Shown here: positions 50,661-64,000 of the stretch, piece after piece
Position numbering within the stretch: position 1 is the stretch's first letter
Layout: each line of letters starts with the position of its first letter
From: Sporomusaceae bacterium
GTDB taxonomy: Bacteria; Bacillota; Negativicutes; UBA1444
NCBI GenBank assembly: GCA_018434355.1
Contig: JAHDPL010000019.1
Coordinates: 1-64,000 of the forward strand
Direction: 5' to 3'
Length of the DNA: 64,000 nt
The notes under the pieces: model-generated
Told to the model about the DNA's origin: nothing
Database searches by the model: none
The model's input: only the letters and a program-made list of their open reading frames with translations
Translations under genes and position numbers: made by a program

Positions 50661-52730
50661 TCAGTTTTGCTTCATTTCCCGCTGCAAGGCAATAAACACT
50701 TCCACCAGCTCAGCGTCAAACTGTGAACCGGCGCAGCGTTGCAACTCTTCTATCGCCTCATCGTCCGACATCGCCTTTCGATAAGGCCGGTCGTTGGTCA
50801 TCGCGTCAAATGCATCCACAATTCCAAGGACGCGGCACTCGATGGGAATCTGTTCGCCGCTGATGCCGAGCGGGTAGCCGTTGCCGTCCCAATGCTCCTG
50901 GTGTTTCAAGATGCTGTCGGCAATCGGCTCCAGATCAGGCGAAGACTTGGCGATCCGGTAGCCAATCTCGCAATGTTGCCGCATAATCACCTGCTCAGCG
51001 TCGGTCAATTTTCCCGGCTTTTTCAGGATACTGTCAGGGATGCCTACTTTGCCAATATCATGGAATTTTGCCAACAGTCGCATGTCGGCCACGACGGCTG
51101 GAGCTAGCTGCAGTGTGCGGCCCATTTGCTCCATCAGGTCGCCGAGCCGGTCGGCGTGTCCTTCGGTAATATGATCCTTTGCTTCCAGGGCCACCATCAT
51201 TGTTTTGACGATTGAGCCGCGAACGCTCAGGCTTTGATGCATTTTCTGACGGTACATGTTGTTGTCGGCGGTTTTAAACAAGATATCGGTATCTTCCGAT
51301 GCCTCGCCGACTGCCCATCCCATCGACACGCTCAGTGGAAGCTGCGGGCAATTTTGGTTGTGTTCGTCAATTTTCGCCCGGTACACTTCCTCCAATTCTC
51401 TCATCATTGCGGGCGTGCCACCGGCGACCACCACGGCCATTTCATCGCCGCCAATCCTAGCCGCGTAACTTGGCGCGACAATCCCGGCGTTTAGCAGGGC
51501 TGCGATCACCTTCAAAATCTCATCGCCCTGGCGGTGTCCCAGAGTATCATTGATCAGCTTCAACCCATCAACATCACAGACAAAGAGTCCGAATGGCTCA
51601 TGCGCACCAGAATTTTTGCGGGCCATGTCGTTTTCAAAATAGGAACGGTTGAATATTCCGGTCAACGGATCGTGTTGCCGCAAGAACTCCGCCGTGCGTT
51701 GACTCTGCTCCAGCTTGCCGTGCGATTCGGTCAAATCGCGCACGCTTTGCTGCAGTTCCAGCTCCGAGCGGCGTTGTTTGCGGGCGGCGACCAGCAGCCG
51801 TCCCGAGAAAAACAAAATGAACAGCGACACCAAGCCGGCTACCGTGTAATAAACCTGGATGCGGTGCACCATCGGCGATAACGCCGCTTCAGCGATTCCT
51901 ACCTGCACGACCAATGGATAGTCAGGCATCACCCGGTAGCTGTAAAAACGCGGCGTGTTAAAATTCATGCCCCGGCTATAATAGAATCCCGTGCTGCTTT
52001 GCGCGAGCTTTTGCCACAGCAGCGCGCTGGAAAGATCGTAATTGATCTCTTTCTCGACGTTGCTGGCCCTGACAATCTTGTCCAGTCCGGTCAGGCGAAC
52101 CACATAGTTTTCATTGAATTTCATGTCGTTATAGAACCGGGAAAAATAGAACGGTGACATCGCGATTGTTGCAATGCCGCCGAAACTGCCGTCGGCTTGG
52201 TTAATCCGCCGGGACAGCTGGATGGTGTATTTCTGTGAAACGCGCCCCAGTGCGGCTTTGCCGATAAAAAGCTTATTTGCGTCTTCATGGCGGTGGGAAT
52301 AAAAATGCGGCAGGTCGGCGAAGCTGGCCTGCGGGTCGACCGGTAGCGCACTGACGACCGGACGGCCTTGTACATTGAGGATCGATGTTTGGGTAATTAA
52401 GGAATCAGTCGCGATTTGGCGCAGGATGTCCGATAGCGCGACGGTGTTGCCGCGTCTTTCATATTCGTTTTTCAACAGCACCAAGTATTGTTCGTTGGTT
52501 TTGAGCACTCGCCGCACATGTTCTTCAAATGCCAGGGCAAATTTGTTGTTTTCCTCCCAGACGTTCTCGATAGTCGTCTTGCGGTCCCAGTCGGCGTGCA
52601 GGAACGCACCGCTCCAAGTAATGAAGAGCAGCAGCGCGCAGAAAACTGCAATGGATGGATTAGGCGATAACCAATTGCGAAAGATTTGTATGGCCTTATC
52701 CATTCGTTTCACGCCTTTCGAAGGTTTCAT
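50661..52730 (-). CDS. Membrane PDC/Cache sensor with GGDEF and HD-GYP domains
   Basis: A 689-residue c-di-GMP protein. Helix at about 25-45, extracytoplasmic PDC/dCache sensor (55-285), second helix (295-315), coiled linker, GGDEF domain (345-500) and HD-GYP domain (505-685). The cyclase loop reads GGDEM instead of GGDEF, while the phosphodiesterase is intact (KFHDIGKVGIPDSIL, HWDGNGYP). Net phosphodiesterase activity with GTP-binding regulation is plausible. Starts at 52730 (AGAGG upstream) or 52703 are both possible. No operon partner. Confidence 0.9.
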   Translation of the reverse strand: MKPSKGVKRMDKAIQIFRNWLSPNPSIAVFCALLLFITWSGAFLHADWDRKTTIENVWEENNKFALAFEEHVRRVLKTNEQYLVLLKNEYERRGNTVALSDILRQIATDSLITQTSILNVQGRPVVSALPVDPQASFADLPHFYSHRHEDANKLFIGKAALGRVSQKYTIQLSRRINQADGSFGGIATIAMSPFYFSRFYNDMKFNENYVVRLTGLDKIVRASNVEKEINYDLSSALLWQKLAQSSTGFYYSRGMNFNTPRFYSYRVMPDYPLVVQVGIAEAALSPMVHRIQVYYTVAGLVSLFILFFSGRLLVAARKQRRSELELQQSVRDLTESHGKLEQSQRTAEFLRQHDPLTGIFNRSYFENDMARKNSGAHEPFGLFVCDVDGLKLINDTLGHRQGDEILKVIAALLNAGIVAPSYAARIGGDEMAVVVAGGTPAMMRELEEVYRAKIDEHNQNCPQLPLSVSMGWAVGEASEDTDILFKTADNNMYRQKMHQSLSVRGSIVKTMMVALEAKDHITEGHADRLGDLMEQMGRTLQLAPAVVADMRLLAKFHDIGKVGIPDSILKKPGKLTDAEQVIMRQHCEIGYRIAKSSPDLEPIADSILKHQEHWDGNGYPLGISGEQIPIECRVLGIVDAFDAMTNDRPYRKAMSDDEAIEELQRCAGSQFDAELVEVFIALQREMKQN

Positions 52731-53790: not shown

Positions 53791-54077
53791 GATTTGTTTT
53801 GCCGAAACCGATATTCGGCCAAAATCAGCGATATTTTCCGCGCTCTTCCCCTGAGATGGGATTTCTGCAGATTACCCGGCGCTCCGGCTGGAATCCTGCC
53901 AAATGCTAGCAGGTTCTGTTTTGTTTTTGTACAAGCGGCCAGATTTGTTAGAATCAACGATTATTTTTGCTCCCGCCAGGGATTACTGGACTTCCGGCAG
54001 CGCTACAGCACCAGCCTCATTCTGTAGGCTTTTTGGAACCCCACGTCTTACGCGGGGTTTTCGATATAAAAAACGAA

Positions 54078-54100
54078 CGCCCGGAAAACATTTCCGGGCG
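54078..54100 (-). terminator. Terminator of the small secreted Met/His-rich protein gene
   Basis: A perfect 10-bp stem CGCCCGGAAA/TTTCCGGGCG with a 3-base loop, followed on the minus strand by TTCGTTTTTT. Confidence 0.85.
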
Positions 54101-54125
54101 TCGATAAGCCTGTATCTGTCAATAT

Positions 54126-54434
54126 TTATTTCCCTGGAGCCGCGGCAGGCGGATTACCCCGCGGACCATTGTGGTTGCCATGTCCGCCATTCATCATTCC
54201 GCCATTCATCATTCCGCCACTCATCATCTGATCCATGTGTTTCTTCATCAGGTCAGCTTGCTCTTGCGTCATGGCTCCACTTTTCACATGGGAATCGAGC
54301 ATTTGCTGCCTTTTTTCCGGGTCAGCGCAAGACATTGCATTGCCGGCCGGTGCTGCCATCGCTACCGCTGCCACTCCCAAGACTCCCAGGATCAGGGCCA
54401 CCGCTAAAATCGAACTTACTTTCTTTGTGAACAT
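54126..54434 (-). CDS. Small secreted Met/His-rich protein
   Basis: A 102-residue protein with a clear signal peptide (hydrophobic 8-26, ending AVAMAAPA). The mature part has a helical repeat-like segment (GAMTQEQADLMKKHMDQMM), as in DUF2680-type secreted proteins, and a tail of GGMMNGG repeats with HGNHNG. Methionine and histidine enrichment outside the cell suggests binding of Cu(I) or another soft metal (inference). It is divergent from a second secreted peptide, and a TGTGAA direct repeat with 11-bp period lies in its promoter region. Confidence 0.8.
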   Translation of the reverse strand: MFTKKVSSILAVALILGVLGVAAVAMAAPAGNAMSCADPEKRQQMLDSHVKSGAMTQEQADLMKKHMDQMMSGGMMNGGMMNGGHGNHNGPRGNPPAAAPGK

Positions 54435-54503
54435 AGTTGTTTGCCTCCTTGTTTTTGTTTAGCTAGCTTATGAACAAATCATAGCAATGAATTATGTAGA
54501 ACC

Positions 54504-54520
54504 TGTGAAGAAGTTGTGAA
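54504..54520 (-). promoter_or_regulatory. Direct repeat TGTGAA-N5-TGTGAA (response-regulator box)
   Basis: Two copies exactly 11 bp apart, 70-86 bases upstream of the secreted-protein start. This is the spacing used by OmpR/PhoB-type regulators, and the motif is the complement of the TTCACA repeats at 54561 and 56450. Confidence 0.65.
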
Positions 54521-54560
54521 GTTCTTATGCTGATTTAACCAAAAAAATCCGCATCACTTC

Positions 54561-54588
54561 TTCACAGTCCATTCACAGGTTTTTCACA
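54561..54588 (+). promoter_or_regulatory. Triple direct repeat TTCACA with 11-bp period
   Basis: Copies at 54561, 54572 and 54583, each TTCACA, exactly one helical turn apart. Located 80-107 bases upstream of the frameshifted secreted peptide gene. Resembles Bacillus PhoP boxes (TTHACA-N5) and other OmpR-family sites. Confidence 0.7.
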
Positions 54589-54667
54589 TTGTTTCGCTAC
54601 AATCAAATCAAAGTTAAGATTAGCTTTCAGTTAAAGTTAAAATTATTAACGAAAAGAGGGACAAATA

Positions 54668-54873
54668 ATGAACAAAAAAGCAATCCGCGTATTCCTGGCC
54701 GCGTACTGGCCCTGTCCGTCACCACCGCCGTCCTGTTGCCCGCCATAACATCGGTGTATGCCGCAACCGCCCCGACTGAAACGCCTGCCAAACCGGACCA
54801 GGCGCCAACACCGCAACCGCCCCCCACTGATCCGCCCAAAGACAAAACCGATCCCCACTCTGGTCATCACTGA
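54668..54873 (+). pseudogene. Small secreted Pro-rich peptide gene with a one-base frameshift
   Basis: The ATG at 54668 starts MNKKAIRVFLAA. The rest of a perfect signal peptide (VLALSVTTAVLLPAITSVYA) and a mature tail rich in Pro and Thr, ending DPHSGHH, are in another frame. Adding one G near 54703 restores a 68-residue secreted protein. As given, translation stops after 26 codons. It may be a sequencing error or a recent mutation. The His-rich end and the regulatory repeats group it with the neighbouring secreted protein. Confidence 0.65.
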
Positions 54874-54888
54874 TTTCCGGAGTGTTTC

Positions 54889-54921
54889 AAGGGCAGCTTT
54901 CCCCCAGGATAGGCTACCCTT
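54889..54921 (+). terminator. Hairpin after the secreted-peptide gene
   Basis: AAGGGCAGCT pairs with GGCTACCCTT (one mismatch, one wobble) and is followed by TTTTT. Confidence 0.55.
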
Positions 54922-55031
54922 TTTATCCTCACTGTCATAATAAATGTAGGTTGTCTTTATGTGGCTGCTACTTTTCTTCCAGCTTCTAGCGGGTCGGCTA
55001 ATTGTCAGAGATGAAATGAGGGTTATTCGAT

Positions 55032-56402
55032 ATGTTTTCAGCGGCGCATAGACCTTTTTCATTACGCAACAAAATGTTTCTCGCGTTTTTCCTTTTATCC
55101 GCCTTCATCATCGTCGCCATTACTTTCGCACTGTTCAACCACATGCGCTCGAACCATCTGGACACGCTGAAACGAGACTTAAGAGTTATCTCCGGCATGG
55201 CTGCATGGAAAATGCAAGAAACTGTGCTTGAAAACAGTAACCGAGCGGACGCTGGCTCCCACGATGCATTACACGACCAATTAGCCCGAATAAAGGAATA
55301 CGGGTTAAACATAAATAAAATCTTCATCCTCAAATTGACAGGAAAAGCAGATGCTCCACTCGAAATCAGCGACGATCTGGAATCAAGCAAAGCGGACTCG
55401 CATGTTGGCGAGCCGTATCGTCTACCATCTGGAGTAACTCTTGAAAATCTGCTGGCTGGTCCGGTTGTCACCGGAACAGTTTCCCGATTTACCGGCGAAA
55501 CCATCACCGCATTTGCACCTATCCGCGATCATAGCGGAATCTCTGTTGCGATTCTGGGTCTCGTCGTTGATTCTGCGCAAGTCGTTGATGATATTAACCA
55601 CTTCTTTGTTGAATTACTCCGCATTGGTGTTATAGCTACTCTTATCGTTGCGGCAATCACCTGGATGTTAGCAAACAATTTTTCCCGTCGCCTGTCTCGC
55701 CTTGACGATGCTCTGACTCGCATCACGACCGGCCAGCTTGACATTTCGCTTGCGGTGGACGGACGAGACGAAGTTGCAACTCTGGCGGCCCGCATCAATC
55801 AAGTGGCCTGCACCATCCATAGCGATCGCGAAAAACTGCTGCTGGATACTATCGAATCTCTGATTGCAGCGCTGGAAGCGAAGGACCCTTATACTTTCGG
55901 CCATTCCTCCCAAGTAAGTTCTTTGACCGTCGCCATATCACATCAACTCAATGTAAAAGAAACAGACATATTTCAGTTCCGCATTGCGGCCTTGCTACAT
56001 GACATCGGCAAAATCGGTGTGCCCGATCAAATACTGAACAAACCTGGTTTATTGGATATTGAAGAACGGAAATCCATCGAGCAGCATCCTGTCATCGGGG
56101 CCAAAATTTGGGCCGGAATTCCGGCGTTGTCGCAGGTAACCGAAATTGTACGACATCACCATGCCCGCTGGGATGGAGCCGGCTACCCGGAGCCATTGGC
56201 AGGGAACGAAATTCCCCTTGGGTCCCGCATCATCGCTGTAGCTGATTCCTTTCAAGCCATGACGTCCAACCGCACCTACCGCACCGGAATGCCGGCAACT
56301 GCTGCACTGGCCGAACTTAAGCGTTGCTCCGGCGCTCAATTCGATCCGGACGTAGTCGCGGCGTTTGCAGTAATATCCGAAACACTTTATCCTCAAGACT
56401 GA
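55032..56402 (+). CDS. Membrane sensor with HAMP and HD-GYP domains
   Basis: A 456-residue protein. Helix at about 14-36, extracytoplasmic sensor (37-190; FAPIRDHSGISVAILGLVVD is Cache-like), helix (195-215), HAMP (215-265), HD-GYP (275-445) with intact LLHDIGKIGVPDQIL and RHHHARWDGAGYP. It should hydrolyse c-di-GMP in response to an external signal. It sits inside the TTCACA-repeat cluster, 158 bases after the secreted peptide gene, but shows no repeat array of its own. Confidence 0.9.
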   Translation: MFSAAHRPFSLRNKMFLAFFLLSAFIIVAITFALFNHMRSNHLDTLKRDLRVISGMAAWKMQETVLENSNRADAGSHDALHDQLARIKEYGLNINKIFILKLTGKADAPLEISDDLESSKADSHVGEPYRLPSGVTLENLLAGPVVTGTVSRFTGETITAFAPIRDHSGISVAILGLVVDSAQVVDDINHFFVELLRIGVIATLIVAAITWMLANNFSRRLSRLDDALTRITTGQLDISLAVDGRDEVATLAARINQVACTIHSDREKLLLDTIESLIAALEAKDPYTFGHSSQVSSLTVAISHQLNVKETDIFQFRIAALLHDIGKIGVPDQILNKPGLLDIEERKSIEQHPVIGAKIWAGIPALSQVTEIVRHHHARWDGAGYPEPLAGNEIPLGSRIIAVADSFQAMTSNRTYRTGMPATAALAELKRCSGAQFDPDVVAAFAVISETLYPQD

Positions 56403-56449
56403 TTTCGCGTTGATCTGCCCAAAATGTTCAGCCAAATTCACATCACTTC

Positions 56450-56477
56450 TTCACAATTCCTTCATCAGACCTTCATA
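56450..56477 (+). promoter_or_regulatory. Direct repeats TTCACA/TTCATC/TTCATA with 11-bp period
   Basis: Three copies starting at 56450, 56461 and 56472, exactly 11 bp apart, about 46-73 bases upstream of the SHOCT gene. Same pattern as at 54561. Confidence 0.65.
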
Positions 56478-56522
56478 GTCCCGCGTTATACTGAAGACAA
56501 ATAAAGAAGGAGGTCGACCGAC

Positions 56523-56762
56523 ATGATGATGGGATATGGATTTGACGGACCGTTGGGATGGCTGGGTATGATTATCGGAATGGTTGTCCATCTGGCATTC
56601 GTAGGCTTGATCGTACTCGCTGTGATCTGGATGTTCCGGGCAGTGTTCCCTGGTAAAAGCGATGATAGCACTCCGGCTTCGTTGGAGATTTTGAAACAGC
56701 GATTTGCCAAAGGTGAAATCAGTCGCGATGAATATCAGCAGCTAAAACAAGACTTGGCCTAA
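56523..56762 (+). CDS. Small membrane protein with SHOCT domain
   Basis: A 79-residue protein. One or two hydrophobic segments (about 10-42), then a SHOCT helix-hairpin (LEILKQRFAKGEISRDEYQQLKQDL, 54-78). The N-terminus MMMGYGFDG is Met-rich. SHOCT domains are short oligomerisation modules, often in membrane or stress proteins. AAGGAGG precedes the ATG. It is followed by a terminator and then the two-component genes, and probably belongs to their regulon. Confidence 0.85.
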   Translation: MMMGYGFDGPLGWLGMIIGMVVHLAFVGLIVLAVIWMFRAVFPGKSDDSTPASLEILKQRFAKGEISRDEYQQLKQDLA

Positions 56763-56772
56763 ACGACGCACA

Positions 56773-56799
56773 AAAGCCCTCTCGCGCAGAGAGGGCTTT
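56773..56799 (+). terminator. Terminator of the SHOCT gene
   Basis: A perfect 11-bp stem AAAGCCCTCTC/GAGAGGGCTTT with loop GCGCA; the U-tract is short. Confidence 0.65.
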
Positions 56800-56878
56800 C
56801 CTGTACAAGAGTCGAAATAAACCATTACAACCACTCCAGACAAAACAAATCAAGTCTAAAATAGTCGAGGTGAGCTTT

Positions 56879-57574
56879 ATGCCCCAGCAGTCGGTCCTCT
56901 TGGTCGACGACGATCCGAAAATCGCCAAATTACTGCGCAGTTATTTTGAAAAGGAAGATTTTACGGTACTGACGGCCCATGACGGCCCTGCCGCCCTCCA
57001 ACTGTACCGCGATAAAAAACCGGATATTCTGGTGCTGGACCTGATGCTGCCGGGCGTGAGCGGTCTGGATGTCTGTCGCCAGATCCGCAAGGACAACGAC
57101 ACGCCCATCTTGATGTTGACTGCCCGCGATGAAGAAGCCGACCGCCTGATCGGGCTGGAACTCGGCGCCGACGACTATGTGTCGAAACCATTCAGTCCGC
57201 GTGAAGTTGTGGCCCGCGCGAAAGCGATTCTGCGGCGCGCCCGCAAAACAGCGGAAAAAACGGAACCATTCAAAGTCGGCAAGTTCACCGTTGACACCGC
57301 CGGCTATTCGGTGAGCGTCGACGGAGTCACGCTCGACCTGACACCGACCGAATACAAGATTTTCGAACTGCTTGCCAGCCGACCCGGTCAGGTATTCACC
57401 CGGTTTCAAATGGTGGAACAGGTGCAGGGCGTTGCTTTTGAAGGCTATGAACGCACGATCGACGCCCATGTAAAAAATCTGCGGCGAAAAATCGACGACA
57501 ACCCGAAAGACCCCCGCATCATCCAGACCGTATACGGAGTCGGCTACAAGTTCTCCGGTGATTCCCATGCATAG
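56879..57574 (+). CDS. OmpR/PhoB-family response regulator
   Basis: A 231-residue regulator. Receiver (1-120): VDDDPKIAKLL, phospho-acceptor Asp in ILVLDLMLPG and Lys in YVSKPF. Winged-helix domain (130-228): LTPTEYKIFELLASRPGQVFTR, RTIDAHVKNLRRKID and VYGVGYKF. The start follows GAGGTGA by 5 bases. It overlaps the kinase start by 8 bases. Proteins of this type bind direct repeats of 11-bp period such as those found at 54504, 54561 and 56450. Confidence 0.95.
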   Translation: MPQQSVLLVDDDPKIAKLLRSYFEKEDFTVLTAHDGPAALQLYRDKKPDILVLDLMLPGVSGLDVCRQIRKDNDTPILMLTARDEEADRLIGLELGADDYVSKPFSPREVVARAKAILRRARKTAEKTEPFKVGKFTVDTAGYSVSVDGVTLDLTPTEYKIFELLASRPGQVFTRFQMVEQVQGVAFEGYERTIDAHVKNLRRKIDDNPKDPRIIQTVYGVGYKFSGDSHA

Positions 57575-58673
57575 CATCACAGCGCGAATCACCGGCCTGA
57601 TGTTTCTCTCGATCCTGCTGACCGTGGTCGTGCTGCTGTATCTGGCCAATCACCAGATGGACCTGCATTTTGGCAACTATCTGGCTGCCCAGCGTAGCGG
57701 CACGGGTATGATGCCGATGATGGGATCGATGGGGTCGGCCGAACAGGCATTTCTGGATAACATCCACCGCTCGCTCTACTGGGTCGGCGGCTTCATTTTA
57801 CTGATCGGCCTATTGGCCAGCTATTTGCTCGCCCGCAGCATCACCGTTCCCATCCGCAAACTTGGCGAAGCTCTGGCTGCCGTTGAAATGGGTCAATACG
57901 GCCAGACCGTCAGTATCGACACGCGCAGCGAAGTCGGCAAACTGGCTGGCGTATTTAACCGTATGTCCTGCTCTTTGCAGGAACAGGTTGCGCTGCGGCG
58001 GCGGTTACTGGCGGATGTCGCGCATGAACTGCGGACACCGCTCACGGTTATTCAGGGCAATCTGGAAGGCATGTTGGAAGGCGTTGTCGACAAGAACGAC
58101 GAAACGCTGAACTCACTGCGGGAAGAAACCGAATACTTAAGCCGGATTGTCACCGATCTGCGCGATTTGTCGCTGGCCGAAGCCGGTCAGCTCAGCCTGG
58201 AAAAATCCGCAACCGACGTCAATCTGCTGGTGCACCGGGCCGTTAGCATGCTGGAGCCGCTGGCCTTCGAACGGAATGTATCCCTGCAGGAGGACGTAAC
58301 GCCGGTCCCCTCCTTATCTCTGGACTCCCGCCGCATCAGCCAGGTGTTTTACAACCTGTTGACCAATGCGATTCGTTACACGCCGGAAAACGGCGAAGTC
58401 TGCATCAGTACCCGGACGTTGTCGCGCTCCGGCAATGATTGGCTGCAAATCTCGGTCCGTGACAATGGCTGCGGTATTGCGGCGGCAGACCTGCCGTTTA
58501 TCTTCGAACACTTTTACCGGGCGGACAAGGCCCGCGACAAAAAGAGCGGCGGGTCCGGCATCGGCTTGGCCATCGTCAAGCAGCTGGTTGAAATTCATGG
58601 CGGCTTTGTCGAAGCCCACAGCGAACTCGGCAAGGGCTGCCAATTCGACGTTTTTCTGCCGATTCAACAGTAA
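57567..58673 (+). CDS. Sensor histidine kinase with short Met-rich external loop
   Basis: A 368-residue kinase. Helix (about 6-27), an external loop of about 45 residues containing GTGMMPMMGSMGSAEQ, helix (about 73-94), HAMP (95-148), HisKA with His in DVAHELRTPLTVIQGN, N box NLLTNAIRYTP and G boxes DNGCGIA, GGSGIGLAIVKQL. The Met cluster in a small periplasmic-type loop recalls soft-metal sensors, which would fit the Met/His-rich secreted proteins nearby (inference). The ATG at 57567 overlaps the regulator gene. Confidence 0.92.
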   Translation: MHSITARITGLMFLSILLTVVVLLYLANHQMDLHFGNYLAAQRSGTGMMPMMGSMGSAEQAFLDNIHRSLYWVGGFILLIGLLASYLLARSITVPIRKLGEALAAVEMGQYGQTVSIDTRSEVGKLAGVFNRMSCSLQEQVALRRRLLADVAHELRTPLTVIQGNLEGMLEGVVDKNDETLNSLREETEYLSRIVTDLRDLSLAEAGQLSLEKSATDVNLLVHRAVSMLEPLAFERNVSLQEDVTPVPSLSLDSRRISQVFYNLLTNAIRYTPENGEVCISTRTLSRSGNDWLQISVRDNGCGIAAADLPFIFEHFYRADKARDKKSGGSGIGLAIVKQLVEIHGGFVEAHSELGKGCQFDVFLPIQQ

Positions 58674-58730
58674 CCCTCCGTCGGTTCAGCCACCAACATG
58701 AACGTGGCTTCAACAGTTTTATTAATCCTT

Positions 58731-58755
58731 GCGGCGCAAGCGCCGCTTTTTTTTT
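58731..58755 (+). terminator. Terminator of the two-component operon
   Basis: 6-bp G+C stem GCGGCG/CGCCGC with loop CAAG followed by nine T. Confidence 0.85.
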
Positions 58756-59035: not shown

Positions 59036-60103
59036 ATGAAAAAATTCTGGTTACTTACGCTTTCCTTGTTCTTGTTGTCGACAGTCTTATTGACCGGGTG
59101 CGGCGGCGGAACACCTGCTCCTGCTGCAACAAAACCCTCTGTCGAAGCAAAGGAAGTCAACATTTACACTTCACGCCACTACCCCGGAATCGATGACGCA
59201 ATCTATAAATCCTTCACCGACAAAACGGGAATCAAAGTCAATGTGATTAAGGCCAGCGGCGAAGAACTGCTGCAACGGATCAAAACGGAAGGCGCCAGCA
59301 GCAAAGCGGATATTTATCTGACCGCCGATGCCGGAAATCTTTACCTGGCAAAACAAGCCGGCGTATTGCAGCCATTTACCAGCCCCGCTCTGACAAAGAA
59401 CATTCCTGCCGATTTCATCGATACCGATAAAATGTGGGTCGGTCTGACGATGCGGGCCCGTGTTCTCGTCTATGCCAAAGACCGGGTCAAACCGGATGAC
59501 CTTTCTACTTATGAAGACCTGACGCAACCGAAATGGAAAGGCAAAATCGTCACCCGCTCTTCCAACAATATTTACAATCAGTCGATGCTGGCGGCCTTTA
59601 TCGCCATGAACGGCGAAACACAGGCCAAAGAGTGGGCCAAAGGAATAACCGCCAACTTTGCCAGACAACCTGAAGGCGGCGACCGGGACCAGGCCAAGGC
59701 TGTAGCGGCAGGCAAAGCGGATGTCGCTATCATGAATTCGTACTATCTCGGTCAGATGCTCAGTTCGAAAGACCCGCTGGAAGTGAAAGCAGCAGAATCG
59801 CTTGGCGTTTTCTTCCCGAACCAGAATACGACCGGAACCCATGTGAATATCGGTGGCGCAGGAATCGTAAAGTCGGCGAAAAATGTCGATAATGCGGTTA
59901 AGTTGCTGGAGTATTTGTCAGATATCGAAGCCCAGCAAAAATTCGCTGAAGCCAGCACCGAATATCCGGTCAATCCTGCCGTAGAACCTTCGGCGCTGCT
60001 CAAGAAGTGGGGAACTTTCCGCAAACAAAACATAAATTTGTCCAAACTGGGTGAACACAACCGGCGGGCCGTGCAGATTTTCAACGAAGTCGGCTGGAAA
60101 TAA
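59036..60103 (+). CDS. Ferric iron ABC transporter substrate-binding lipoprotein (FutA/FbpA type)
   Basis: A 355-residue binding protein. Lipoprotein signal ending STVLLTGCGGG, then EVNIYTSRHYPGIDDAIYKSFTDKTGIKV, a typical start of the iron-binding cluster, with the Tyr-rich NSYYLGQML segment at the metal site. It captures Fe(III) outside the membrane. GGAGG is 9 bases before the ATG, and a Fur-like box is upstream. First gene of a three-gene transport operon. Confidence 0.9.
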   Translation: MKKFWLLTLSLFLLSTVLLTGCGGGTPAPAATKPSVEAKEVNIYTSRHYPGIDDAIYKSFTDKTGIKVNVIKASGEELLQRIKTEGASSKADIYLTADAGNLYLAKQAGVLQPFTSPALTKNIPADFIDTDKMWVGLTMRARVLVYAKDRVKPDDLSTYEDLTQPKWKGKIVTRSSNNIYNQSMLAAFIAMNGETQAKEWAKGITANFARQPEGGDRDQAKAVAAGKADVAIMNSYYLGQMLSSKDPLEVKAAESLGVFFPNQNTTGTHVNIGGAGIVKSAKNVDNAVKLLEYLSDIEAQQKFAEASTEYPVNPAVEPSALLKKWGTFRKQNINLSKLGEHNRRAVQIFNEVGWK

Positions 60104-60126
60104 TCCGCTGAAAGGAATTATCACTT

Positions 60127-61728
60127 GTGACCAAACTGATACGCGGATTCAATGAAACGAATATCTGGAACCTGTTGGCTTTTCTGATTGTTGCCGCCAC
60201 CGTCATTCCGGTTGCCAACCTCGCCCTCGGCGTTTTGCCGGGGGAAAATGAAAACTGGCGGCACATCAGGGAATACCTGCTAAAAGATTATGTGGTGAAT
60301 ACCCTGATCCTGTTTGGGTTTTCCGGACTATTCGCTTCCTTGATCGGCGTCAGTCTGGCCTATCTGGTTACAGTTTTTGATTTTCCGGGCCGGCGTTTTT
60401 TTCAGTGGGCATTGATCTTACCGCTCTCAGTTCCTGCATATATCGCCGCTTACACGTACAGCGGCATGCTTGGTTATACCGGAATCATCACCCGCGCTCT
60501 ATCCGGGCTGTTCGGTCGGGATATCTCCATTGACATCATGTCGGTTCCCGGTGCTATCTTTATTTTCACTTTCTTTTTGTTTCCCTATGTGTACATTATC
60601 AGTCGGGCTTTTTTGGCCAAGTATACCGCGTCATTGATTGAAAGCGCGATCATGCTCGGTAAAAATTATACGCAGATTTTTTTCCAGGTCATTCTGCCGG
60701 TATCGCGCGGCGTCATCGCTTCCGGCTCTGCGCTGATCCTGATGGAAGTCGCCAATGACTACGGCGTCGCCAGTTATTTTGGCATCGACACCTTCAGCAT
60801 CGCCATTTTCAAAGTCTGGTTCGGCATGGGTGATGTCGGGGCCGCTGCTCATTTGTCGCTCTACGCTCTGGCTTTTATCGTCTTTATCATTTTGGCAGAA
60901 AAAGCCATTCGTGGCCAAAAACGCTTCGCGATCGCGACAACCAAAGTCCGCCTGTTGACGCCGCATCGACTGCGTGGCGCCAAAGCGGCGATTGCCGCCG
61001 GTTACAGCATGCTGGTCTGGAGTCTGGGTTTTTTCATCCCGTTCCTCCAACTTGTCGCCTGGTCTGCGCTTACTTATGAAGAGGTGCTGGATCAAAGCTT
61101 CCTGCAGGCCACTGTGAACACCGTTTTTGCCGCTGCATTCTGCGCGTCGCTCATCGTTTGCTGCGCGGCCATCATCACCAACAGCGCCCGTATCAGCCGA
61201 AGCAGGCTGGTCAGAACCGCTGGAAAATTGACTGCGGTCGGCTACTCGGCGCCTGGCGCCGTGATTGCGATTGGCGTACTGATTTTATTCATCTGGCTAA
61301 ATGCCATGACGGAGCTGTTTTGGTCCTATTCACTCATCACCAGCATCTACATGCTGCTATTCGCCTATCTCGTCCGTTTCATGGCAGTTGGCTGCAATTC
61401 ACTGGAAAATGGCTTTGAGAAAATTGGCAAGACCTATTTCGAAGCTTCGCGGACTCTTGGTTTCGGCGTAACCCGGACCTTTTTCAAGGTTGATTTCAAA
61501 ATGCTGCTACCTTCGATGATCGGCGCATTTTCGCTGATTTTTGTCGATATGGTCAAAGAACTGCCCTTGACCCTGATACTACGCCCCTTCAATTTCAACA
61601 CCCTGGCAACCAAGGTCTATGAATATGCCCACGATGAACGGGTTCACCACAGTGCACCGGTTGCCCTGATCATCATCGCCATCTGTTCGATTTCCGTCTA
61701 CAGTCTGTCCAAACTGGACAAGGAGTGA
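60127..61728 (+). CDS. Ferric iron ABC transporter permease (FbpB type, fused dimer)
   Basis: A 533-residue membrane protein with about 12 helices in two homologous halves. Each half has an inner-membrane EAA loop (ESAIMLGKNYTQIFFQVILP and EASRTLGFGVTRTFFKVDF). The GTG start follows AAAGGAA by 8 bases, 23 bases after the binding-protein gene. It forms the channel of the Fe(III) importer. Confidence 0.92.
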   Translation: MTKLIRGFNETNIWNLLAFLIVAATVIPVANLALGVLPGENENWRHIREYLLKDYVVNTLILFGFSGLFASLIGVSLAYLVTVFDFPGRRFFQWALILPLSVPAYIAAYTYSGMLGYTGIITRALSGLFGRDISIDIMSVPGAIFIFTFFLFPYVYIISRAFLAKYTASLIESAIMLGKNYTQIFFQVILPVSRGVIASGSALILMEVANDYGVASYFGIDTFSIAIFKVWFGMGDVGAAAHLSLYALAFIVFIILAEKAIRGQKRFAIATTKVRLLTPHRLRGAKAAIAAGYSMLVWSLGFFIPFLQLVAWSALTYEEVLDQSFLQATVNTVFAAAFCASLIVCCAAIITNSARISRSRLVRTAGKLTAVGYSAPGAVIAIGVLILFIWLNAMTELFWSYSLITSIYMLLFAYLVRFMAVGCNSLENGFEKIGKTYFEASRTLGFGVTRTFFKVDFKMLLPSMIGAFSLIFVDMVKELPLTLILRPFNFNTLATKVYEYAHDERVHHSAPVALIIIAICSISVYSLSKLDKE

Positions 61729-61733
61729 TCAGC

Positions 61734-62375
61734 ATGTTTTTGCAACTGAAAAATATCAACTTTAAATACGACGGCAATCACCAGTATGTGTTGAAAGATT
61801 TCCATCTCCAGGCAGCAAAAGGAGAAATCGTATCGATCCTTGGCCTGAGCGGCAGTGGCAAAAGCACTGTCATCCGCCTGATCGCCGGGCTGGAAGTCCC
61901 TGCCGGCGGAACCATCGAAATCAATGGCAGACTGGTCGCCGGCCCTGACAGCTTTGTTCCGCCGGAAAAGCGCAAAGTGGGAATGGTGTTTCAGGACTAT
62001 GCCCTGTTTCCCCATTTGTCGGTTTACGAAAACATTGCATTCGGCCTTTCCCATCTGAGCAAAGCGGAGCTGTCAGCCCGGGTGAACAGCCTGCTGGAAC
62101 TTATCAACATGAGCGAGTACGGCAGCCGTTATCCTTACCAACTCAGCGGCGGCCAACAACAACGCGTCGCCGTGGCACGGGCGCTGGCGCCAAAACCGGA
62201 CCTGCTGCTGATGGATGAGCCGTTCAGCAATATCGATTGTGAGTTGAAACAAAAGATGCGCGGTGAAATCCGTGAAATCTTAAAGTCTGAATCGGCAACC
62301 TGTTTGTTTGTCACTCACGACAAAGCGGATCTGGAAGACCTGTCGGATCGCTCAATCACGATAGAGCCCAACTGA
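61734..62375 (+). CDS. Ferric iron ABC transporter ATPase (short FbpC type)
   Basis: A 213-residue ATPase: Walker A GLSGSGKST, Q-loop MVFQDYALFPHLS, signature LSGGQQQRVAVARAL, Walker B LLLMDEPFSNID and H-loop VTHD. Typical FbpC proteins are about 350 residues with a C-terminal regulatory domain; that domain is absent here. AAGGAG is 8 bases before the ATG at 61734, inside the end of the permease gene region. Confidence 0.93.
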   Translation: MFLQLKNINFKYDGNHQYVLKDFHLQAAKGEIVSILGLSGSGKSTVIRLIAGLEVPAGGTIEINGRLVAGPDSFVPPEKRKVGMVFQDYALFPHLSVYENIAFGLSHLSKAELSARVNSLLELINMSEYGSRYPYQLSGGQQQRVAVARALAPKPDLLLMDEPFSNIDCELKQKMRGEIREILKSESATCLFVTHDKADLEDLSDRSITIEPN

Positions 62376-62451: not shown

Positions 62452-64000
62452 TTAGTTTGCGAATTCAATCCGGTTCTTGCCCGATTTTTTGACCCGGTAC
62501 AACGCTTCGTCCGCATGCCTCATTACCACCTCGCGTTCGCGAGACCCGTCCCAAAAAGCGCAACCAATGCTGCAGCCGATCCGGGCCGATTGCTGTCCAA
62601 TCGCTACCGGCTCGGCAACCTGAGCCAAGATCCGCTCGGCGACAGGCAGTACCATGCTCTGTTCTTTTCCGGCATGCACGAAAAGGACCACGATGAATTC
62701 ATCACCGCCAATCCGGGCTGCAAGTTCTTCGCTGCGCAAATTGTGTTTGAGCCGTTTGGCTGTTTCAGCCAGAACTTGATCGCCGGCAGCGTGGCCCAGG
62801 CTGTCATTCACCGCTTTGAATCCATCAAGGTCGATAAACAGAAAAGCCAGAGCCAGCCCTTCTTGCCGCAGCACCATCGCCTGCGCCTTTGTCAAATACT
62901 CGTCCAGTCCCAACCGGTTCGGCAAACCGGTCAGTTTGTCAAAATAGGCGATGCCTTCCAGTTTGGCAACCGTTCCTTGATACACGGAAACACTATCGAC
63001 CAATTCCCGCAATGAGTCCGCCAACTGTTCGATTTCGAAGATTCCTTTCGGCGTTTCGATAGGCTCCTTGCCGCCAAATCGCAAGCGATCCGCCGTGCGC
63101 GCCAGTTTCACGATCGGTTTGGTGATAGCGTCTGAAAAATACCAACCGGCCACAGCAAACAAGCTGGCGAAAAAAGCCGCCAACAGCCAAATGAATTGTT
63201 GCAACCGATTCGCAGCCGCATGCGCCAGCTCAATCGGTTGCCGAATTAGCACGACCCACCCCAAACCTTTGTAGTCGAGATAGCCCTCGCCAATGTCAAA
63301 CCCTGTGATATAGGCCGCGTTGCCCGGCCACACTTCCTGCAACCAGCCTGATTGCCCTTGCAGGGCCTTTTTTATGCTGGCCAGCTCCAATTTTTGACCC
63401 AGCATTTCCGCCGGCCCCAACAGCACGCTGCCTTCCTGACGGCTAATGATGAATATCTCGCCTTGCCGCCGCTCGGCCATTGGTTGAAACATTGATTGTT
63501 TCAGTTGCTCGGCCCATTTCCAGCTTAGGTGGGCCGCCAGCACGCCGATTGTTTTGCCGGTATTGTCTTTAATCGGCATACTGATGTCGACAAATTTCAT
63601 CGGTTCCCCGCTGGGATTCGGCAGCAGTTTTGCCAGCAGGACGGCATCATGCACGTCGCCGACGAACTCTCCCTTGATTCCTTCCTGGAAAACCGGTCGC
63701 GCGGCAATGCTTTGTCCGACCAGGATATGATTGGTAGCCGCCCATACTGTGCCTTTATCGTCGGTTACGCCAATCCAGGAAAATGCGGCAATATTCATTT
63801 GCAGCCGATTCAATAGAGCTTCAGCGGCGGCGGGATTCCGCCGGTCCTTGAATTCATTCAGTTCCGCCAACATCCGCACTTCGACCGTCCGGCCCCACAT
63901 ATACTGGTCCAGTCGGCTTGTCATCATGTACGCGGTCGCCGCCAGCGCCGTCCCTTCCTGGTTCTTGAAGTCCTCAGCGGCGCGCCAGCCGATACTAACG
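62452..64000 (-). CDS. Cache-HAMP-GGDEF diguanylate cyclase, 5' end outside the window
   Basis: The frame remains open to the window edge, so the N-terminus, probably with a first membrane helix, is missing. Visible: a dCache sensor (WIGVTDDKGTVWAATN, MPIKDNTGKTIGVLAAHLSWKW), a helix (WLLAAFFASLFAVAGWYF), HAMP and a GGDEF domain with an intact ARIGGDEF loop and FLFIDLDGFKAVNDSLGH. It should make c-di-GMP in response to an external ligand. Convergent with the iron transporter operon. Confidence 0.92.
   Translation of the reverse strand, partial: VSIGWRAAEDFKNQEGTALAATAYMMTSRLDQYMWGRTVEVRMLAELNEFKDRRNPAAAEALLNRLQMNIAAFSWIGVTDDKGTVWAATNHILVGQSIAARPVFQEGIKGEFVGDVHDAVLLAKLLPNPSGEPMKFVDISMPIKDNTGKTIGVLAAHLSWKWAEQLKQSMFQPMAERRQGEIFIISRQEGSVLLGPAEMLGQKLELASIKKALQGQSGWLQEVWPGNAAYITGFDIGEGYLDYKGLGWVVLIRQPIELAHAAANRLQQFIWLLAAFFASLFAVAGWYFSDAITKPIVKLARTADRLRFGGKEPIETPKGIFEIEQLADSLRELVDSVSVYQGTVAKLEGIAYFDKLTGLPNRLGLDEYLTKAQAMVLRQEGLALAFLFIDLDGFKAVNDSLGHAAGDQVLAETAKRLKHNLRSEELAARIGGDEFIVVLFVHAGKEQSMVLPVAERILAQVAEPVAIGQQSARIGCSIGCAFWDGSREREVVMRHADEALYRVKKSGKNRIEFAN

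Follow-up and report, generated by a model that had tools for sequence, protein, structure and literature searches.

The window analyzed here, that is, a stretch of 64,000 nucleotides (positions 1 to 64,000, forward strand) of contig JAHDPL010000019.1 from the Sporomusaceae bacterium assembly GCA_018434355.1 (class Negativicutes), harbors a compact gene cluster at 54076-58746 encoding a response regulator, a sensor histidine kinase and small envelope proteins, together with three arrays of TTCACA-like repeats representing putative operators (Table 1). The DUF2680 gene is located on the minus strand, the remaining genes are oriented divergently from it, and both ends of the cluster are closed by strong terminators. 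Pfam assignments confirmed the Met/His-rich secreted protein, the SHOCT membrane protein, the OmpR-type regulator and the HisKA kinase, which had previously been proposed by a model from the letters alone (hereafter, the sequence-only reading). Regarding the predicted Cache HD-GYP protein, the HD-GYP part was recovered, whereas the Cache domain remained below the Pfam cut-off (16.7 vs. 28.4 bits).

Table 1. Genes, putative operators and terminators of the cluster (positions within the window; aa, amino acids; TM, transmembrane).
Feature	Position	Strand	Details
Intrinsic terminator of the DUF2680 gene	54076..54102	-	
DUF2680 secreted protein, 102 aa	54126..54434	-	Pfam DUF2680 33.5 bits (cut-off 25); Met+His ~20% of the mature part
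Operator array 1 and -10 box	54478..54531	-	three half-sites from 54520 (54520..54493), weak fourth from 54531; -10 TATGAT 54483-54478
Operator array 2 and -10 box	54550..54603	+	three perfect half-sites from 54561 (54561..54588), weak fourth from 54550; -10 TACAAT 54598-54603
His-ended secreted peptide gene, end PHSGHH	54668..54873	+	frameshift between ATG and mature part
HAMP and HD-GYP protein, 456 aa	55032..56402	+	Pfam HD_5 142 bits, HAMP 28.8 bits
Operator array 3 and -10 box	56439..56492	+	three half-sites from 56450 (56450..56477), weak fourth from 56439; -10 TATACT 56487-56492
SHOCT membrane protein, 79 aa, MMMGYG start	56523..56762	+	Pfam SHOCT 38 bits (cut-off 27)
Weak hairpin with poor T tract, between SHOCT and regulator genes	56779..56795	+	
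OmpR/PhoB-family response regulator, BaeR-like, 231 aa	56879..57574	+	Pfam; closest solved relative BaeR (4b09)
Sensor histidine kinase, 368 aa	57567..58673	+	Pfam HAMP, HisKA, HATPase_c; two TM segments
Intrinsic terminator closing the SHOCT-regulator-kinase unit	58731..58746	+	

Each array is composed of three TTCACA/TTCAYA half-sites, and the exact 11-bp spacing claimed by the sequence-only reading was found at all three positions. Two further features had escaped that reading, namely a -10 hexamer beginning exactly 9 bp past the end of each array and a weaker fourth half-site located 11 bp upstream (CATAA, CATCA, and CATCA, respectively). The exact sequence TTCACA-N5-TTCACA occurs three times in the genome of 3,901,353 bases, always within this cluster, and was absent from the reversed control. 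When the complete motif (three TTCANA hexamers with an 11-bp period, followed by 9 bp and TANNNT) was searched with at most one mismatch, only the three window sites were retrieved from the whole genome, array 2 being the sole site with zero mismatches, and the pattern did not appear in 20 Markov resamplings of the window. A looser pattern (two TTCAYA, one mismatch) was not specific, with 63 sites vs. 31 in the controls. Elsewhere in the same genome, 11-bp arrays of another type (GTCACA-N5-TTCACA-N5-GTCAYA) were noticed at C23:120321-120348 and, on the contig of the window (C33) but outside the window, at C33:223804-223831, preceding a TolC-like efflux gene as well as genes for a MacA-like adaptor and a MacB-like ATPase; these are probably the sites of another regulator.

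The perfect pattern was also detected in relatives, with 78 sites in 37 out of 300 genomes of the class compared to one match in the reversed control. With E values up to 1e-90, the kinase was found in 67 of these genomes, among them 32 of the 37 carrying arrays (odds ratio 42, Fisher p 2e-19, the p value being inflated by shared ancestry). Within the loci of relatives, 46 triples reached a score of at least 17 at a period of 11 bp and none did so at periods of 8-10 or 12-16 bp, while TANNNT was located at exactly 9 bp in 39 out of 48 arrays. Chance repeats were ruled out by the Markov resampling, the period test and the reversed controls. When base frequencies were tabulated for 84 arrays of the relatives, additional conserved bases became apparent, namely CA at -9/-8 and A at -5, which had not been used in the search; since they form a weaker fourth half-site, four half-sites are assigned to each operator, the number expected if two regulator dimers bind. 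In the vicinity of more distantly related kinases from outside the class, 13 arrays were found in 80 loci (three Negativicutes) and none in reversed sequence, preceding SHOCT-like proteins in two loci (L146 and L179) and a DUF305 protein in an Actinomycetota metagenome-assembled genome (L115). The search of relatives suggested by the sequence-only reading recovered the repeats and the regulator/kinase pair across the Negativicutes, and the proposal that an OmpR-type regulator would act on the arrays is well supported by the comparison, the arrays co-occurring with the kinase across genomes. The designation as a small system is appropriate for the minimal window copy but not for the large regulon of the relatives. 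In two genomes, G118 (L203-L208) and G106 (L209-L211), the regulon is unusually expanded, with five and four regulator/kinase copies and 11 and 9 perfect arrays, respectively.

PhoB and PhoP boxes are likewise 11-bp direct repeats, and the sequence-only reading itself had considered that the arrays might be general phosphate-response boxes used by another regulator. However, no array with up to three mismatches was located on the two contigs carrying phoU, the genes behind the arrays are not phosphate genes, and the regulator did not reach the cut-off of the curated PhoB model (220.8 vs. 296.2 bits). Based on the genomic position of the arrays and their occurrence together with the kinase, this explanation is effectively excluded.

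To describe the genes behind the arrays in relatives, the first gene was recorded by an automatic rule for 167 predicted promoters, 161 of them being followed by a reading frame; this census is descriptive and biased, as one repeat is shared between some overlapping promoters and the loci were partly picked around the kinase. CusC-like outer-membrane efflux genes were the most common first genes (26), followed by DUF2680 (17), the regulator itself (15), SHOCT (12), DUF6803 membrane proteins (12), a 46-residue membrane peptide (12), LemA (7) and the His-ended peptide (7), whereas TPM, multicopper oxidase, HtrA and others were less frequent. The single-TM peptide (46-48 residues; L041:6605-6748 and L237:8701-8838) belongs to no Pfam family, and the DUF6803 gene (e.g., L052:6552-7049) is mostly located immediately upstream of the regulator gene. 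In array loci of relatives, genes for a CusB-like and a CusA-like protein come after the CusC-like gene; the pump scores above the CusA/CzcA cut-off, and methionines aligned to M573, M623, and M672 of CusA, which form its Cu(I)/Ag(I) site, were retained in five out of five pumps checked. The targets further include multicopper oxidases and one protein with a cupredoxin domain (L213). In view of the CusCBA-type pump, its methionine triad, the cupredoxin and the multicopper oxidases, the metal signal is likely to be Cu(I)/Ag(I). Compared to the other reading frames of those loci, array targets also had a higher median Met+His content (0.063 vs. 0.044) and more frequently featured an N-terminal hydrophobic segment (69% vs. 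42%).

The closest solved relative of the regulator is BaeR (4b09), both having the helix RTIDxHxKNLRRK in common, and the array repeat TCTTCAYAA fits the published BaeR half-site TCTNCANAA (PMC3799227). The BaeS models were the top-scoring ones for the kinase. Nevertheless, neither the curated BaeR model (232.9 vs. 380 bits) nor the BaeS models (224.7 vs. 500 and 222 vs. 603 bits) reached their cut-offs, and the same applied to the heavy-metal regulator and kinase models TIGR01387 and TIGR01386 (170.4 vs. 279.2 and 177.3 vs. 292.55 bits, respectively). These cut-offs and that for PhoB were all missed, and the system is placed outside the named families, although it would work in the manner of Bae and Cus. 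The external part of the kinase comprises approximately 40 residues, and the alignment shows it to be rich in Met, a feature shared by the majority of relatives although not by every one; hence, the Met-rich loop postulated by the sequence-only reading exists in this kinase, whereas metal sensing by a loop that is not conserved did not gain support.

Taken together, the cluster most probably represents a minimal, local version of a two-component regulon recurring in the Negativicutes, in which a BaeR-type activator would respond to envelope stress and to Cu(I)/Ag(I) in the periplasm, and we hold this view with fair rather than high confidence. A general envelope stress response of the BaeSR/CssRS type, for which misfolded or damaged envelope protein would be the signal, metals just one of several inducers, and the Met-rich proteins chaperones or scavengers, appears unlikely but deserves consideration. 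The relationship to BaeR and BaeS, the HtrA, LemA, TPM, Lgt-adjacent and membrane-protein targets, the resemblance of the arrays to the CssR box TTTTCACA (PMC6749698) and the lack of CusA in the window genome are in agreement with it, but the targets are enriched in CusCBA, multicopper oxidase, cupredoxin and Met/His-rich proteins, and this enrichment is specific to Cu/Ag handling.

Several points weigh against the proposed metal regulon, namely that the HtrA, LemA, TPM and VTT-domain targets are equally compatible with general envelope stress, that the Fisher p value takes no account of common descent, that some relatives lack the Met-rich kinase loop, that the His-ended peptide gene is frameshifted in the window, and that a search of the window genome for a CusA homologue yielded none (best match 27%). 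As CusA is lacking, copper was deduced for this organism from its relatives; the soft-metal envelope response claimed by the sequence-only reading is accordingly backed by the Cu/Ag-type pumps, multicopper oxidases and cupredoxin behind arrays in relatives, but not as a copper response in this organism itself. The secreted His-ended peptide of that reading is likewise not intact here, because the frame of the ATG (54668) runs into a stop and the mature part lies in a different frame. In relatives, intact members of this array-driven family are 58-63 aa long and share an invariant H-x-x-H-H end. The missing CusA and the frameshift would be compatible with a decayed remnant of a system formerly tied to a Cus pump and no longer working in this organism. 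This is considered very improbable, given that the three operators are intact with exact spacing, that the regulator, kinase, DUF2680, SHOCT and HD-GYP frames are intact, and that the single frameshift may be an assembly error.

In the mechanism proposed for the metal regulon, the kinase would sense either Cu(I)/Ag(I) in the periplasm or damage that these ions cause to the envelope, and phosphorylate the BaeR-type regulator. Two regulator dimers would then occupy the four direct half-sites, which would stand in for a -35 element, so that RNA polymerase would be recruited to the -10 box 9 bp downstream and the small metal-binding and envelope proteins (DUF2680, the His-ended peptide and SHOCT) would be switched on. 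Transcription from the SHOCT promoter probably also extends past the weak hairpin into the regulator and kinase genes, and this read-through would establish positive feedback; in relatives, the regulator gene often has its own array. Concerning the HD-GYP protein, a distance of about 1.5 kb or less separates its gene from the regulator/kinase pair in five other loci, and since this proximity recurs, the link is unlikely to be accidental and the protein may play a role in the proposed regulon.

Proteins of cyclic di-GMP (c-di-GMP) metabolism lie near one another in the window, comprising a GGDEF and HD-GYP protein (50661-52730, -), the HAMP and HD-GYP protein of the cluster and a GGDEF-type sensor (62452-63927, -). 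The adjacent ATP-binding cassette (ABC) importer operon (59036-62375, +; binding protein, permease and ATPase), for which binding proteins of 2-aminoethylphosphonate and thiamine gave weak matches, carries no array and was regarded as a separate unit. An Rfam scan of 50-62 kb gave no match.

Among known systems, BaeSR of E. coli and Salmonella is similar in the regulator fold, recognition helix and half-site (PMC3799227) and in its targets, which include a resistance-nodulation-division (RND) pump and a small periplasmic protein; moreover, copper was described to cause self-association of E. coli BaeS (PMC4780735). In contrast to BaeSR, the system described here misses the curated cut-offs, has an external sensor of only about 40 residues and features a strict four-half-site array 9 bp from the -10 box. 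The BaeSR targets spy, mdtABC and acrD were not encountered among the array targets, where Cus-type pumps replace Mdt/AcrD and DUF2680, SHOCT, the His-ended peptide and DUF6803 are found. With CusRS, SilRS and PcoRS, it shares Met/His-rich periplasmic proteins and, judging from the arrays linked to the pump in relatives, would share the two-component control of a CusCBA-type pump with intact CusA methionine triad, but it differs in the missed heavy-metal cut-offs, in the BaeR-type direct-repeat operator and in the absence of CusA from the window genome. In Synechocystis CopMRS/CopBAC, a Met/His-rich periplasmic protein is encoded with a two-component system, in addition to a heavy-metal efflux (HME) RND pump; CopM, which binds Cu(I), belongs to the DUF305 family (PMC4335983). 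The arrangement of such a protein beside a two-component system is comparable, as is the array preceding a DUF305 (CopM-family) protein in the Actinomycetota relative; however, the window cluster features DUF2680 and SHOCT proteins instead of DUF305, and this comparison refers to the genes. CssRS of Bacillus resembles the system in its CssR box (PMC6749698), and the HssR and HitR operators are direct repeats (PMC3968170), but CssRS and HssRS/HitRS function in secretion stress and heme efflux, and no common gene set was found here.

A literature search, limited to open-access sources and thus providing weak evidence of absence, returned no description of this regulon or of periplasmic copper sensing in Negativicutes; within the same limits, DUF2680 was named in a single paper, which deals with toxin-antitoxin systems, and no copper link was found. 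The regulon apparently represents a widespread and so far undescribed metal/envelope stress response. Going further, it is quite possible, if somewhat less likely than not, that a class-wide regulon with related copies in other phyla links the detoxification of periplasmic Cu/Ag to envelope protein quality control, and possibly to c-di-GMP turnover, through one BaeR-type regulator with a fixed four-half-site promoter, and that DUF2680, SHOCT proteins of the MMMGYG type, DUF6803, the His-ended peptide and the 46-residue peptide are new metal-handling envelope proteins. The array is strict enough for finding regulon members from sequence, and several families of unknown function therefore receive a testable copper/envelope function. 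Negativicutes being Firmicutes with an outer membrane and a periplasm, the regulon offers a direct comparison with the Bae and Cus responses of E. coli.

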